A stretch of 64,000 nucleotides of DNA, from contig NZ_JAAIUV010000003.1 in assembly GCF_010975035.1 (NCBI RefSeq), forward strand, positions 1 to 64,000, given 5' to 3'. This DNA is from Neobacillus thermocopriae. Its GTDB lineage: Bacteria > Bacillota > Bacilli > Bacillales > Cytobacillaceae. Within the stretch, counting starts at the first letter, position 1; each line of letters opens with the position of its first letter. Position numbers and translations under genes: made by a program. The notes beneath the pieces are model-generated. The model ran no database searches, was not told the origin of the DNA, and was given only the letters and a program-made list of their open reading frames with translations. Of this stretch, positions 4,977 through 43,140 are shown in pieces.

Positions 4977-6419
4977 ATGGGAACAGGAAAAGTCTATTTA
5001 GTAGGAGCTGGGCCAGGGGATATTGGATTAATCACAGTAAAAGGGCTGGAAGCAATCAAACAAGCTGAAGTAATCTTGTATGATCGGCTAGCCAATCCAA
5101 AACTATTGGAATTTGTTCCGGCGGATTGCGAGTTAATCTACTGCGGTAAACTGCCGGAACGCCATATTTTACGCCAGGAAAATATCAATGACCTATTGGT
5201 GAAAAAAGCCCAGGAAGGAAAAATGGTTGTCCGCCTCAAAGGTGGTGACCCTGGAGTGTTTGGACGGGTTGGAGAAGAAGCAGAAGCACTTGCCAAGCAT
5301 CAGATTCCATTTGAAATCGTTCCTGGCATTACATCGGGAATCGCTGCCCCACTTTATGCAGGGATCCCGGTAACCCATCGGGAGCATGCTGAATCCTTTG
5401 CGGTGATCACCGCTCATGATAAATCTGAGGATGGCAAGCCTGTCTTAAATTGGGATAGTCTTGCCCGAGGTATTGATACCATTGCTTTTTATATGGGGGT
5501 AAGGAATTTACCGTTCATTTGTGAAAATCTCATTGCTTATGGAAAACCATCAAACACACCAGTCATTTTAATTCAATGGGGAACGTTCGGCCGGCAGAAA
5601 ACGTTGCAAGGAACTTTAGCTGATATTTCAGATAAGGTGAAGGAAGCCAAGTTTAGTAATCCGGCGATTATCTTGGTTGGCCCAGTTATTTCGCTTCGGG
5701 AAAAAATGAAGTGGTTTGAAAATAAGCCACTCTATGGCAGACAAATCATACTTGCCCGTACAAGTGAGAGCCCAAGCGATTTGGCGAAGGAGTTGGCTGC
5801 ACAAGGAGCAGATGTCATTGAATTTCCAAAATGGAAAAGAATCACTCTTCCAGTAAATCCAGAAATCTTAGCTAAGATAGACAGTTATGATCAAATATTG
5901 TTTACTTCGCCTGAAAGTGTTGATGAGTTTTTTAACATTCTATACGAAAACCAATTCGATATACGCCGAATACGTGCGGAACTATTCGGTGTTTCCAACA
6001 AATCTCTCAAAGCCTTAAGGGAAAGAGGGTTTATTCCACTTCCAGCCGATGAAATGTCTGTGATGGGGAAACGGCTAGTTGTTTGTGACACCCAATGGGA
6101 GAAGGATGAAAATGCGGATGTATGGCTGACAAGTGAAAAAGTATTGGATTCACAATTCTTTCCAATTTTTCGAAGAATATTTGATGATGCCGTGATCAAT
6201 ACCGTTGTTTTTCCTAATAGTGCCTCAGTCGAGCCTTTTATGAGAGGGTTAAGAGAATGTGGCATTCATTTGATGGAAAATGTACAAATTGTCTCTATGG
6301 GCAAAAAGACGATGAATGCTGTAATGAAGCAAGGGCTTCCTGTAAGTGAAATGCCGAAACAAGCGACAAAGGAAGCATTGGTAGAATTATTAGCCTCAAA
6401 GCCGATTGGAATCATGTAA
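4977..6419 (+). CDS. cobA: Uroporphyrinogen-III C-methyltransferase fused to uroporphyrinogen-III synthase domain
   Basis: Makes precorrin-2, the siroheme precursor, by two SAM-dependent methylations of uroporphyrinogen III. Residues 1-240 are the SUMT/CobA domain (VGAGPGDIGLIT near 9, VVRLKGGDPGVFGR near 85, GITSGIAAP near 120). Residues 250-480 look like a HemD domain, weakly conserved. The 480-residue fused form corresponds to B. subtilis NasF. Its place in the nitrite reductase operon fits supply of siroheme to NirB. An ATG preceded by GGAAGGATG-type sequence was chosen. Confidence 0.93.
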   Translation: MGTGKVYLVGAGPGDIGLITVKGLEAIKQAEVILYDRLANPKLLEFVPADCELIYCGKLPERHILRQENINDLLVKKAQEGKMVVRLKGGDPGVFGRVGEEAEALAKHQIPFEIVPGITSGIAAPLYAGIPVTHREHAESFAVITAHDKSEDGKPVLNWDSLARGIDTIAFYMGVRNLPFICENLIAYGKPSNTPVILIQWGTFGRQKTLQGTLADISDKVKEAKFSNPAIILVGPVISLREKMKWFENKPLYGRQIILARTSESPSDLAKELAAQGADVIEFPKWKRITLPVNPEILAKIDSYDQILFTSPESVDEFFNILYENQFDIRRIRAELFGVSNKSLKALRERGFIPLPADEMSVMGKRLVVCDTQWEKDENADVWLTSEKVLDSQFFPIFRRIFDDAVINTVVFPNSASVEPFMRGLRECGIHLMENVQIVSMGKKTMNAVMKQGLPVSEMPKQATKEALVELLASKPIGIM

Positions 6420-39670: not shown

Positions 39671-39695
39671 CATGTTACTGATTCGATCAGGCATG
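39671..39695 (+). promoter_or_regulatory. RAT (ribonucleic antiterminator), GlcT type
   Basis: The segment with TTACTGATTCGATCAGGCAT forms an imperfect hairpin (CTGAT-TCG-ATCAG inside CATG...CATG). It is nearly the sequence I remember for the GlcT target in the B. subtilis ptsG leader. Its last bases overlap the left arm of the following terminator, which is how antitermination by BglG/GlcT proteins works. Confidence 0.8.
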
Positions 39696-39747
39696 GTGGT
39701 AAAATAGAAGGTTTTAGTGCCTTTTATGATACCGCCATGCCTTTTTT
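39690..39747 (+). terminator. RAT-controlled leader terminator before the PTS genes
   Basis: 12-bp stem GGCATGGTGGTA / TACCGCCATGCC (one G-T pair), 28-base loop, then TTTTTT. Mutually exclusive with the RAT hairpin (shared bases 39690-39695). Confidence 0.88.
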
Positions 39748-39770
39748 ATTAGCATTGACTGGAGAATGAT

Positions 39771-39860
39771 CTAGTGTAAACGCATTAGTGGCCTATTGTG
39801 TTTCTTTTTCTCGGATGGAACGCACGATCAAGAAAGGCCTCGATACACTAGTTTCTTGAT
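39771..39860 (+). other. Structured part of the PTS leader
   Basis: Two inverted repeats interlock: CTAGTGTA (39771-39778) with TACACTAG (39844-39851), and ATCAAGAAA (39827-39835) with TTTCTTGAT (39852-39860). The right arm of the first lies in the loop of the second, so the two stems can form only as a pseudoknot or as alternatives. Role unknown. Confidence 0.45.
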
Positions 39861-39943
39861 AAATTTCAGAAAAAGATAATTAGGTAAATAGTATTAATAT
39901 TTTTCTAATAACTATCATTAATATTGGTAAAGGGGTAATTTTT

Positions 39944-40435
39944 ATGTTTAATTTCTTTAAAAAGACAAAAGCAGTAGAAATCCATGCACCGGTAGATGGA
40001 AAGATTATTAAGCTAGAGGAGGTGCCAGATCCGGTTTTCGGTCAGAAATTAATTGGTGAAGGCGCTGCCGTCTTGCCATCAGAGAAAGGTCATATATATG
40101 CACCAGTCGATGGAAAGATCATACAAGTAGCGCCAACGAAGCATGCAATTGGTATTTTGGCTGAGGATGGAACAGAAATATTAATCCATGTCGGGTTAGA
40201 AACCGTATCGTTAAATGGAGAAGGATTTAAACCGGCAGTCACGGTAGGGGAAAAAGTTTCGGTTGGACAATTGCTGCTCGAAGTGGATTGGACTTATATT
40301 AAGGCCCATGCTTCTAGCACGGTTACTCCTATTGTAATCACCAATGCCCAGGATGGAAAGAAACAAATTCATGTAACAGAGGAGAAGGAAGGTATTGCCG
40401 GTAAGACGGTGATGATCACCGTAAATAAAAAGTAA
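39944..40435 (+). CDS. crr: PTS glucose-type EIIA component
   Basis: Free-standing EIIA of the glucose/GlcNAc PTS family, 163 residues. Transfers phosphate from HPr (via His) to an EIIB domain. Active His82 in ILIHVGLETV and partner His67 in KHAIGIL. N-terminal APVDGKIIKLEEVPDPVF is standard. It precedes the EIICB gene, which lacks its own IIA, so it probably serves that permease. Start ATG after AAAGGGGTAATTTTT. The gene is downstream of the RAT/terminator leader. Confidence 0.93.
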   Translation: MFNFFKKTKAVEIHAPVDGKIIKLEEVPDPVFGQKLIGEGAAVLPSEKGHIYAPVDGKIIQVAPTKHAIGILAEDGTEILIHVGLETVSLNGEGFKPAVTVGEKVSVGQLLLEVDWTYIKAHASSTVTPIVITNAQDGKKQIHVTEEKEGIAGKTVMITVNKK

Positions 40436-40484: not shown

Positions 40485-40583
40485 TGATGAAGGGTCAAAA
40501 CGATAAAAAGCTTATGCATTGGAAAAATGATTTTATCTGTTTCACTTTTTTGTATACGTCTATATGAATAGGGGGTAATGAAA

Positions 40584-42026
40584 ATGATGAAGTATCTCCA
40601 AAGGCTTGGCCGATCCTTAATGCTGCCAGTCGCTGTTTTGCCAGCTGCCGCTATTTTGATGGGGATTGGTTACTGGATTGACCCTTCAGGTTGGGGGGCA
40701 GAGAGTCCACTTGCTGCATTCCTTATTAAAGCCGGTGATTCAATTATTGGAAATATTCCTATCCTGTTTGCAGTCGGTGTTGCATTAGGGATGTCCAAGG
40801 AAAAAGATGGTTCTTCGGCATTGAGCGGTCTTGTTGCCTATCTCGTGGTAACGACATTACTGTCAACCGGTACAGTGGCATTGTTGGAAGGTATAAAACC
40901 AGAAGAGGTGGATCCTGCTTTTGGGAAAATTGGAAACGCTTTCGTTGGTATTCTTTCGGGGATTGTTGCTTCGATAATGTACAATCGCTTTAGCCATGTG
41001 AAATTGCCGGATGCGCTGGCCTTTTTTAGTGGCAAACGTTTAGTGCCAATTATGACAGCCGTTTCAATGTTGGTGGTATCTGCCATATTGTTCTTTATTT
41101 GGCCTGTGATTTATACTGCATTAGTATCTTTTGGTAAGGGAATCAGTGAATTAGGAGCTGCAGGTGCAGGATTATATGGCTTCTTTAACCGTCTTCTAAT
41201 CCCAACTGGATTGCATCATGCCTTGAACTCTGTGTTTTGGTTTGATGTGGCAGGAATTAATGATATTGGTAACTTCTGGTCCGGTAATGGAGAAAAGGGT
41301 GTTACCGGTATGTATCAAGCAGGCTTCTTCCCTGTCATGATGTTCGGTTTGCCTGCAGCCGGTTTGGCGATGTATCATACGGCTAAAACGAAGAAGAAAA
41401 AGCAAGTAGCATCTTTAATGATGGCTGCTGGTTTTGCTGCCTTCTTTACAGGTGTTACAGAGCCAATTGAATTTGCGTTTATGTTCGTTGCACCGGTTCT
41501 TTATATTGTGCACGCTATTTTAACTGGTATTTCTTTATTTGTTGCAGCCACTTTCCATTGGACCGCAGGTTTTGGTTTTAGTGCGGGTTTCATTGACTTT
41601 TTCTTAAGTTCAAGGCTACCATTGGCCAATTCTCCATATATGCTTTTAGTTCAGGGGCTTATTTTTGCAGTAATTTACTATTTCTTATTCCGATTTATTA
41701 TTACAAAGTTTAACTTGATGACACCTGGACGTGAAGAAGATGAAGAAGAATTGGCAGAAGCTGGTCCTTCAGGCGAGAGTAAATTTGCAGTTATGGCTAA
41801 ACAAATCTATGAAGGATTGGGCGGGGACGATAATGTAGTTTCTGTCGACAACTGTGTGACTCGTTTGCGTTTGGAAGTGAAGGATATGAATAAGGTTGAC
41901 AAGAATAAAATTAAAGCAGCAGGGGTACATGGGATTAATGTTGTCGGCGAACATAGCATTCAGGTCATTGTTGGCACCAATGTTCAGTTTGTTGCTGATG
42001 AAGTAATGAAAATCCGGAATAAATAA
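40584..42026 (+). CDS. nagP: PTS N-acetylglucosamine-specific EIICB
   Basis: Sugar-transporting membrane protein of about 480 residues. EIIC (about 1-375, some ten helices) contains GLHHALNSVFWFDVAGINDIGNFW near 210-235 and FFTGVTEPIEFAFMF near 293, both typical of GlcNAc permeases (NagE/NagP) more than PtsG. EIIB is at 395-480 with phospho-Cys424 in DNCVTRLRL. No IIA domain, so the preceding EIIA gene fits. Start ATG 40584 lies 8 bases after GGGGG; ATGs at 40578 and 40587 are alternatives. Confidence 0.92.
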   Translation: MMKYLQRLGRSLMLPVAVLPAAAILMGIGYWIDPSGWGAESPLAAFLIKAGDSIIGNIPILFAVGVALGMSKEKDGSSALSGLVAYLVVTTLLSTGTVALLEGIKPEEVDPAFGKIGNAFVGILSGIVASIMYNRFSHVKLPDALAFFSGKRLVPIMTAVSMLVVSAILFFIWPVIYTALVSFGKGISELGAAGAGLYGFFNRLLIPTGLHHALNSVFWFDVAGINDIGNFWSGNGEKGVTGMYQAGFFPVMMFGLPAAGLAMYHTAKTKKKKQVASLMMAAGFAAFFTGVTEPIEFAFMFVAPVLYIVHAILTGISLFVAATFHWTAGFGFSAGFIDFFLSSRLPLANSPYMLLVQGLIFAVIYYFLFRFIITKFNLMTPGREEDEEELAEAGPSGESKFAVMAKQIYEGLGGDDNVVSVDNCVTRLRLEVKDMNKVDKNKIKAAGVHGINVVGEHSIQVIVGTNVQFVADEVMKIRNK

Positions 42027-42127: not shown

Positions 42128-42946
42128 TTACTTTATTCGTAGTCGTTCAATATGAAGGGTTATATATCCTAGTTCATGTTCGGGTAAGAGCATCTGATAA
42201 TGGTGTAAGAGTTCTGTTGCTATTTGTTGGGCACATTCATAGGAAGCAGGAAATTTTAATTTTATCATTTTTAACATTTCTTCATCCATGGTGTGCTGCT
42301 GTTTGTCATTAATCCGTAATAGGGCAAAGCGTAAGTGGGTAATCAGCCGTTGATAGGAAAGATCCTCTTCATTCATTTCCATTTTTAGATGGTCCCGGAT
42401 TGTTTGTATCATATGGCTAAGGATTGCTGTTTGTCTGAGTGTCTGTTTCATATCACCGCTCTTTAGTTTGGCAGTATGAATATGTAATGCGATATAACCA
42501 GCTTCGTCAATAGGGAACGTAATGTTCATCTTTTTTTCCATATGTTTGATGGCCCACAGGCCGATGTTAAATTCGTTCTTGTACAGTATTTTAATTTCTT
42601 GCAGAAGTTTGTTTTTTACATATATTCCATCCCGAATTCTTTCAATGGCAAAAGATAAGTGATCGGTTAGTGCAATATGAATATGTTCACTTAGTTTGGT
42701 TCCGAGAGATTGCTCGGCATAGGTGATAATTTCTTCTGAAAGGGCAAAATGTTCTTCGGGTATTTGAAGAAGTAGTTGATGGAATCTTTCATTTTCTTTA
42801 AGTACAAACAGCTTTTCGATTTTATTTGGATTGACAATGTCATTTTTCTTTTTTTGAAAAGCGATTCCGCTCCCGATAGCGATCTTTTCTTCCTTTTGAT
42901 CAATAATGACTACGGCATTATTATTTAGGATTTGTTTGATTTTCAG
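42128..42946 (-). CDS. glcT: GlcT/LicT-family transcription antiterminator with apparent CTG start
   Basis: RNA-binding antiterminator of the BglG/GlcT family, 272 residues if it starts at CTG 42946. Residues 1-58 are the co-antiterminator domain (KIKQILNNNAVVIID, GSGIAFQKKK). PRD1 is at about 65-170 (LSEHIHIALTDHLSFAIERI) and PRD2 at about 172-272 (GYIALHIHTAKLKSGD, LGYITLHIERL), with the regulatory histidines in place. The frame has no stop, yet contains no ATG, GTG or TTG between the upstream TAA and 42541. CTG lies 10 bases after AAGGAG and aligns with the family Met; ATT 42952 is the only other candidate. Probably controls the adjacent PTS genes. Confidence 0.82.
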   Translation of the reverse strand: MKIKQILNNNAVVIIDQKEEKIAIGSGIAFQKKKNDIVNPNKIEKLFVLKENERFHQLLLQIPEEHFALSEEIITYAEQSLGTKLSEHIHIALTDHLSFAIERIRDGIYVKNKLLQEIKILYKNEFNIGLWAIKHMEKKMNITFPIDEAGYIALHIHTAKLKSGDMKQTLRQTAILSHMIQTIRDHLKMEMNEEDLSYQRLITHLRFALLRINDKQQHTMDEEMLKMIKLKFPASYECAQQIATELLHHYQMLLPEHELGYITLHIERLRIK

Positions 42947-43140
42947 AGGAATCCAACTCCTTGTTTGTCCCTGTAGAGTATATGTTGTGAATATGCCTTA
43001 TGCATGTTTTTTAGGTAAAAAAATTGGTTAAAAAGAAAATTCGACATGTTTTTTGTTTTTCCTCCTTTTTCATTGCCGGTTTTTGATACACTGATAGGGA
43101 AGCTTATATTTCTGAAAAAATAGGTGTAATAGGAGCAACG

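Follow-up and report, generated by a model that had tools for sequence, protein, structure and literature searches.

A predicted CTG start codon in a NagY-type antiterminator gene, and recurrent rare start codons among its orthologues

The DNA analysed here (the window, 64,000 nt) carries a gene for an antiterminator on its minus strand. The gene is convergent with PTS genes that lie behind a predicted antiterminator binding site (RAT) and an intrinsic terminator; positions are listed in Table 1. The window belongs to a 224-kb contig, contig 23 of a 3.2-Mb genome that is 99.97% complete. The closest named orthologues of the antiterminator are from Neobacillus. The 61 genomes of the genus include no other from this species, and the nearest orthologues are ~74% identical. 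A scan of the window with Rfam returned a tRNA only.

Table 1. Features of the antiterminator gene and of the convergent PTS genes, in window coordinates.
Feature	Position	Strand	Basis or remark
NagY-type PRD antiterminator coding sequence, 272 aa, probable CTG start	42128..42946	-	Translation, PF03123, 2x PF00874, 38 close orthologues
Stop codon TAA of the antiterminator gene	42128-42130	-	
CTG, well-supported candidate start codon	42944..42946	-	GTG, TTG or ATG occupies the same position in orthologues
Shine-Dalgarno (SD) AAGGAG	42957..42962	-	10-nt spacer to CTG; most Neobacillus orthologues share the motif, similarly spaced
Upstream in-frame stop TAA	42998..43000	-	Rules out a more distant start
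Earliest in-frame canonical ATG	42539..42541	-	Residue 136, within PRD1; not the start
RAT CATGTTACTGATTCGATCAGGCATG, predicted antiterminator binding site	39671..39695	+	In relatives, near-invariant ahead of IIA
Intrinsic terminator, 13-bp stem and T-run	39689..39747	+	5' arm overlaps the RAT; fold z = -6.55
PTS EIIA gene, first after the RAT and terminator	39944..40435	+	PF00358
GlcNAc-type PTS EIIBC gene (nagP-like), convergent with the antiterminator gene	40578..42026	+	TIGR01998

The antiterminator frame runs to its TAA with no interruption, and its product is a complete antiterminator, as the first-pass annotation had claimed. Thus, CAT_RBD (PF03123) covers residues 2-53 (66.3 bits against a Pfam cut-off of 25) and PF00874 matches two PRD stretches. 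The first of these spans residues 71-158, which puts the earliest canonical ATG in PRD1 and not deep inside PRD2 as had been stated. Four conserved PRD histidines (in TDH, ALHI, THLRF and TLHIER) align with those of LicT, the nearest solved structure. The domain set, the four histidines, and the RAT and terminator ahead of PTS genes place the gene with the BglG/SacY (PRD) antiterminators. Hence, the earlier label 'GlcT/LicT family' stands at the level of the superfamily. It does not stand at the level of the LicT and GlcT equivalogs, since the protein falls below both cut-offs. The best-scoring NCBIfam model was the LicT equivalog NF046042 (274.7 bits, cut-off 300); the GlcT equivalog NF047357 gave 243.9 bits (cut-off 320). 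The genome also encodes GlcT itself, as a distinct paralogue with 32% identity.

The adjoining EIIBC is of the GlcNAc type (TIGR01998, 672 bits against a cut-off of 553.2) and is encoded behind the RAT; GlcNAc is a candidate inducer. The core of this nag RAT has the NagY-type pattern CATGTKACT...AGGCATGG (PMC12502629). In relatives the RAT is nearly invariant, and the terminator changes in sequence while its base pairing persists. Given the GlcNAc-type PTS and the NagY-like RAT, NagY-type appears to be the best functional label, rather than GlcT/LicT. The nag RAT differs from a ptsG RAT (G000:C24:2870-2894, minus strand) at one base in 25. The RAT core is therefore not exclusive to NagY, and cross-talk between NagY and GlcT may be possible in this genome. 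We also considered a switch of the window's nag RAT (loop ATTCGAT) to control by GlcT. This idea was weakened by the same T in the nag RATs of four other loci (L045, L175, L179 and L183). A second hairpin at 39750-39870 was unremarkable (z = -0.29).

Elsewhere in the genome, a second GlcNAc-type IIBC gene (C7:12236-13597) adjoins nagA. The module has been lost from a Neobacillus relative with a small genome (L091 2250-2700, G063:C18), in which EIIA, nagY and the methyltransferase gene are missing and nagP is reduced to its 3' end, located between rsmF and the following gene. In two further genomes (L093 in G014, L094 in G026) the nagY genes are nearly identical and the nagP genes are not sisters (distances to the window of 0.208 and 0.128), which suggests exchange of nagP in one of the two.

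Gene finders generally ignore starts outside ATG, GTG and TTG, so genes with such starts are annotated as fragments. For the antiterminator, restricting the open reading frame to canonical starts leaves a fragment of 137 aa only. We confirmed that there is no in-frame ATG, GTG or TTG between the upstream TAA and 42541. We then scanned codon usage in the window and a further ~340 kb of this genome (~400 kb in total). The coding signal 5' of the first canonical start reached 18.3 log units over 134 codons, making the gene the top outlier among ~212 genes. The runner-up, at 10.8 log units, is probably spurious, its total coding score being negative. Hence, the antiterminator frame is not a chance open frame. 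The CTG aligns exactly with the start codons of 38 close orthologues (>=64% identity), which are GTG in 23 cases, TTG in 10 and ATG in five; the window alone has CTG. AAGGAG lies at similar spacing in most of the 38. The predicted SD pairing of the window gene is not unusually strong (-9.2 kcal/mol) and mRNA structure near the CTG is unremarkable (z = -0.23). Initiation of translation at this CTG is well supported by these comparisons. The first-pass annotation had raised a change from ATG to CTG; in the tree, the window gene groups closest to GTG-started genes. A step from GTG or TTG to CTG seems the likelier one. One survey put GUG to CUG switches at ~2 x 10^-4 and AUG to CUG switches at ~3 x 10^-5 per ancestral codon (PMC5622118).

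We next searched 193 genomes of the family and 397 of the order, reading the upstream regions, and recovered 121 distinct orthologues. Their starts are ATG (49, eight of them shifted 1-2 codons upstream), GTG (36), TTG (29), ATC (4), ATT (1), ATA (1) and CTG (1); in these counts, TTG calls in Anoxybacillus were reassigned to an ATG 6 nt upstream. Seven of the 121, in separate assemblies, have no plausible ATG, GTG or TTG start. Besides the window, these are L169 (ATT) and L175 (ATC) in G131, L170 (ATC) in G114, L171 (ATC) in G113, L172 (ATA) in G126, and L191 (ATC) in G343, a genome of another family. An in-frame GTG in L171 lies inside the SD itself, and a TTG in L175 is 75 nt upstream; neither is plausible as a start. 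For comparison, rare or flexible starts account for <0.3% of genes in the Listeria core genome (PMC13068326). Heuristic start choice in the sample of the window genome gave 166 ATG, 30 TTG and 15 GTG starts, and all 18 loci compared have ATG at the start of the adjacent methyltransferase gene. As a positive control, we located infC, the textbook ATT-start gene. It starts with ATT in the window genome, G131, G114 and G343.

In a quick tree, five orthologues with ATC, ATT or ATA starts fall in one clade of a single genus, together with one ATG-started member (SH-aLRT 99). L191 and the window are placed outside this ATH clade. Starts beyond ATG, GTG and TTG thus appear to have arisen at least three times among nagY orthologues, and the weak start is, as judged from these alignments, not an accident of the window strain. 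Gene order in the ATH clade places nagY between EIIA and EIIBC, both of which start at or near ATG. Predicted SD pairing at the ATH starts ranges from -14.6 to -22.4 kcal/mol, against a median of -11.0 kcal/mol in other orthologues (Mann-Whitney p = 0.0003, indicative only as the sequences are related). G131 holds two complete IIA-nagY-IIBC operons, those of L169 and L175. In L171, the gap between EIIA and nagY (5420-5740) contains ~300 nt of palindromic repeat-like DNA that is missing from its close relative L170. Translational coupling of nagY to EIIA is therefore unlikely in L171.

The GlcT paralogues of Neobacillus (L102-L121) are also often TTG-started, and in one of them (L104) the homologous start codon is ATT, followed by GTG. 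L121 was considered as another ATA start; the case is ambiguous, as the same frame contains an ATG 15 nt upstream. We found no report of starts outside ATG, GTG and TTG in antiterminators in the open-access literature.

Taken together, the homologous start position with no other plausible start near it, the recurrence of rare codons, the coding constraint and intact target described below, and the ATG-started PTS neighbours make it very probable that the window gene is a functional NagY-type antiterminator initiated at CTG, and that weak, IF3-discriminated starts recur in this group, where they would keep the dose of a sugar regulator low. According to this proposal, initiator tRNA would start translation at the CTG, guided by AAGGAG. 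The predicted action of NagY is on the nascent IIA-nagP leader, where binding to the RAT would open the overlapping terminator and so allow synthesis of the GlcNAc-type PTS. The PRDs would report PTS phosphorylation, and hence sugar availability. Most likely, the cell requires or withstands only small amounts of regulator compared with the PTS, and a start codon that cuts initiation would be favoured, or at least well tolerated. The orthologue group has a lasting tendency towards non-ATG starts, and at least three times this has extended to the IF3-discriminated codons CTG, ATC, ATT and ATA.

The main rival concerns the reason for the weak starts and leaves CTG initiation in place. If few NagY copies are needed, start codons could wander unselected among ATG, GTG, TTG and near-cognate codons, and the wide variation of start codons among orthologues (seven types) fits such drift. 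We fitted a two-state model to the Neobacillus subtree. A free ATG frequency of ~0.15 beat the genome-wide value of 0.815 by 2.4 log units (~p = 0.03). This suggests selection against ATG in Neobacillus nagY under the model; the statistical case for an equilibrium low in ATG is modest, which leaves room for drift. Conversely, the ATH clade switches between ATC, ATT and ATA over a large divergence, mostly avoiding ATG, while its SD has been strengthened and the adjoining IIA and IIBC genes keep ATG. In other bacteria, moreover, reversions of GUG or UUG to AUG outnumber changes in the opposite direction (PMC5622118). Low-dose control of the regulator is thus the explanation that we favour, and drift under low demand seems less likely.

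The CTG might instead be a recent mutation that marks early decay in a gene becoming dispensable, an idea close to the earlier suggestion that the gene had been weakened. The second GlcNAc-type PTS and the deletion in G063 fit such a course. So does the nagY branch leading to the window, which is ~1.35x the usual distance, whereas neighbouring genes give 1.02-1.07x. The long branch and the deletion point to a possible loosening of constraint on the nagP/nagY system. Against decay, omega in a codon model is 0.045-0.053 for triples containing the window and 0.039-0.060 for triples without it. The ATH clade gives 0.098, and values of 0.05-0.10 indicate that nagY genes are constrained. The four PRD histidines, the RAT and the terminator are all retained, there is no stop or frameshift, and the number of broken invariant sites (8 of 140) is similar to that of the ATG-started gene of G018 (10 of 142). 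A very recent hit would be invisible to each of these tests. We regard early decay as improbable.

A single wrong base at 42946, hiding a real GTG, TTG or ATG, would produce the same picture. Such an error is made much less likely by the independent rare starts at the same codon in related assemblies (six loci in five other genomes). The base also lies on a 224-kb contig of a 99.97% complete genome, and no comparable case occurs in the ~400 kb scanned. We consider a sequencing or assembly error very improbable. Initiation elsewhere in the frame is the least credible option, because the ATT at 42950-42952, offered as an alternative by the first-pass annotation, is in frame but just 4 nt after AAGGAG and not conserved, the in-frame ATG at 42541 would yield a PRD-only protein lacking the RNA-binding domain and the greater part of PRD1, and orthologue starts fall at the CTG position.

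Low-dose control through a weak start therefore remains our preferred reading, and the CTG looks less like a broken gene or a read error than like an evolved means of making very little regulator. To our knowledge, very few bacterial genes have starts outside ATG, GTG and TTG. Here, separate lineages of one orthologue group have CTG, ATC, ATT and ATA starts beside same-operon partners that start with ATG. The variety of nagY starts is a natural experiment on the strength of a regulator's start codon, and the case supports homology-aware searching for other missed starts. As speculation, and with little confidence, we suggest that NagY of the Bacillaceae could be a second sizeable gene group, after infC, in which selection has made IF3-discriminated starts a point of control. 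Regulator synthesis, driven by a strong SD and a near-cognate start, would then vary with initiation fidelity, and the condition of the translation machinery would feed into amino-sugar uptake.

The closest described system is NagY of Enterococcus faecalis (BglG/SacY; PMC9981650, PMC12502629), which is likewise a CAT_RBD-PRD-PRD antiterminator associated with a GlcNAc PTS. In both organisms the RAT overlaps the terminator; it reads CATGTGACT...AGGCATGG in E. faecalis (PMC12502629) and CATGTTACT...AGGCATGG in the window. The E. faecalis gene heads a nagY-nagE operon; its own leader contains the RAT, and its start codon is ATG. Conversely, the window gene is separate from IIA-nagP, convergent with it, and has the CTG start. 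LicT and GlcT of Bacillus share the domain architecture of the window protein, which differs from them in scoring under both equivalog cut-offs and in lying beside a GlcNAc-type PTS.

With respect to the start codon, the nearest parallels are infC (ATT) and Streptomyces sigR (GTC), which combine a start outside ATG, GTG and TTG with a real SD and belong to the IF3-repressed class (PMC5472188). The GTC start of sigR is held down by IF3 (PMC5472188). By codon, CTG in the window and ATC, ATT and ATA at the conserved start site in orthologues would fall in the same IF3-discriminated class. The product of infC is IF3, which regulates its own synthesis, and that of sigR is a sigma factor; the window gene encodes a sugar antiterminator for which several rare codons are used across species. 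Several E. coli carbohydrate regulators also favour non-ATG starts (PMC11445065). Among regulators of carbohydrate uptake, lacI of E. coli offers a functional parallel. Its GTG start keeps LacI low and speeds lactose adaptation (PMC11445065), and a low level of the window protein would be expected on the same grounds. Unlike the rare nagY codons, which lie outside ATG, GTG and TTG and belong to an antiterminator gene, the GTG of lacI is a standard start codon, and LacI acts as a repressor.
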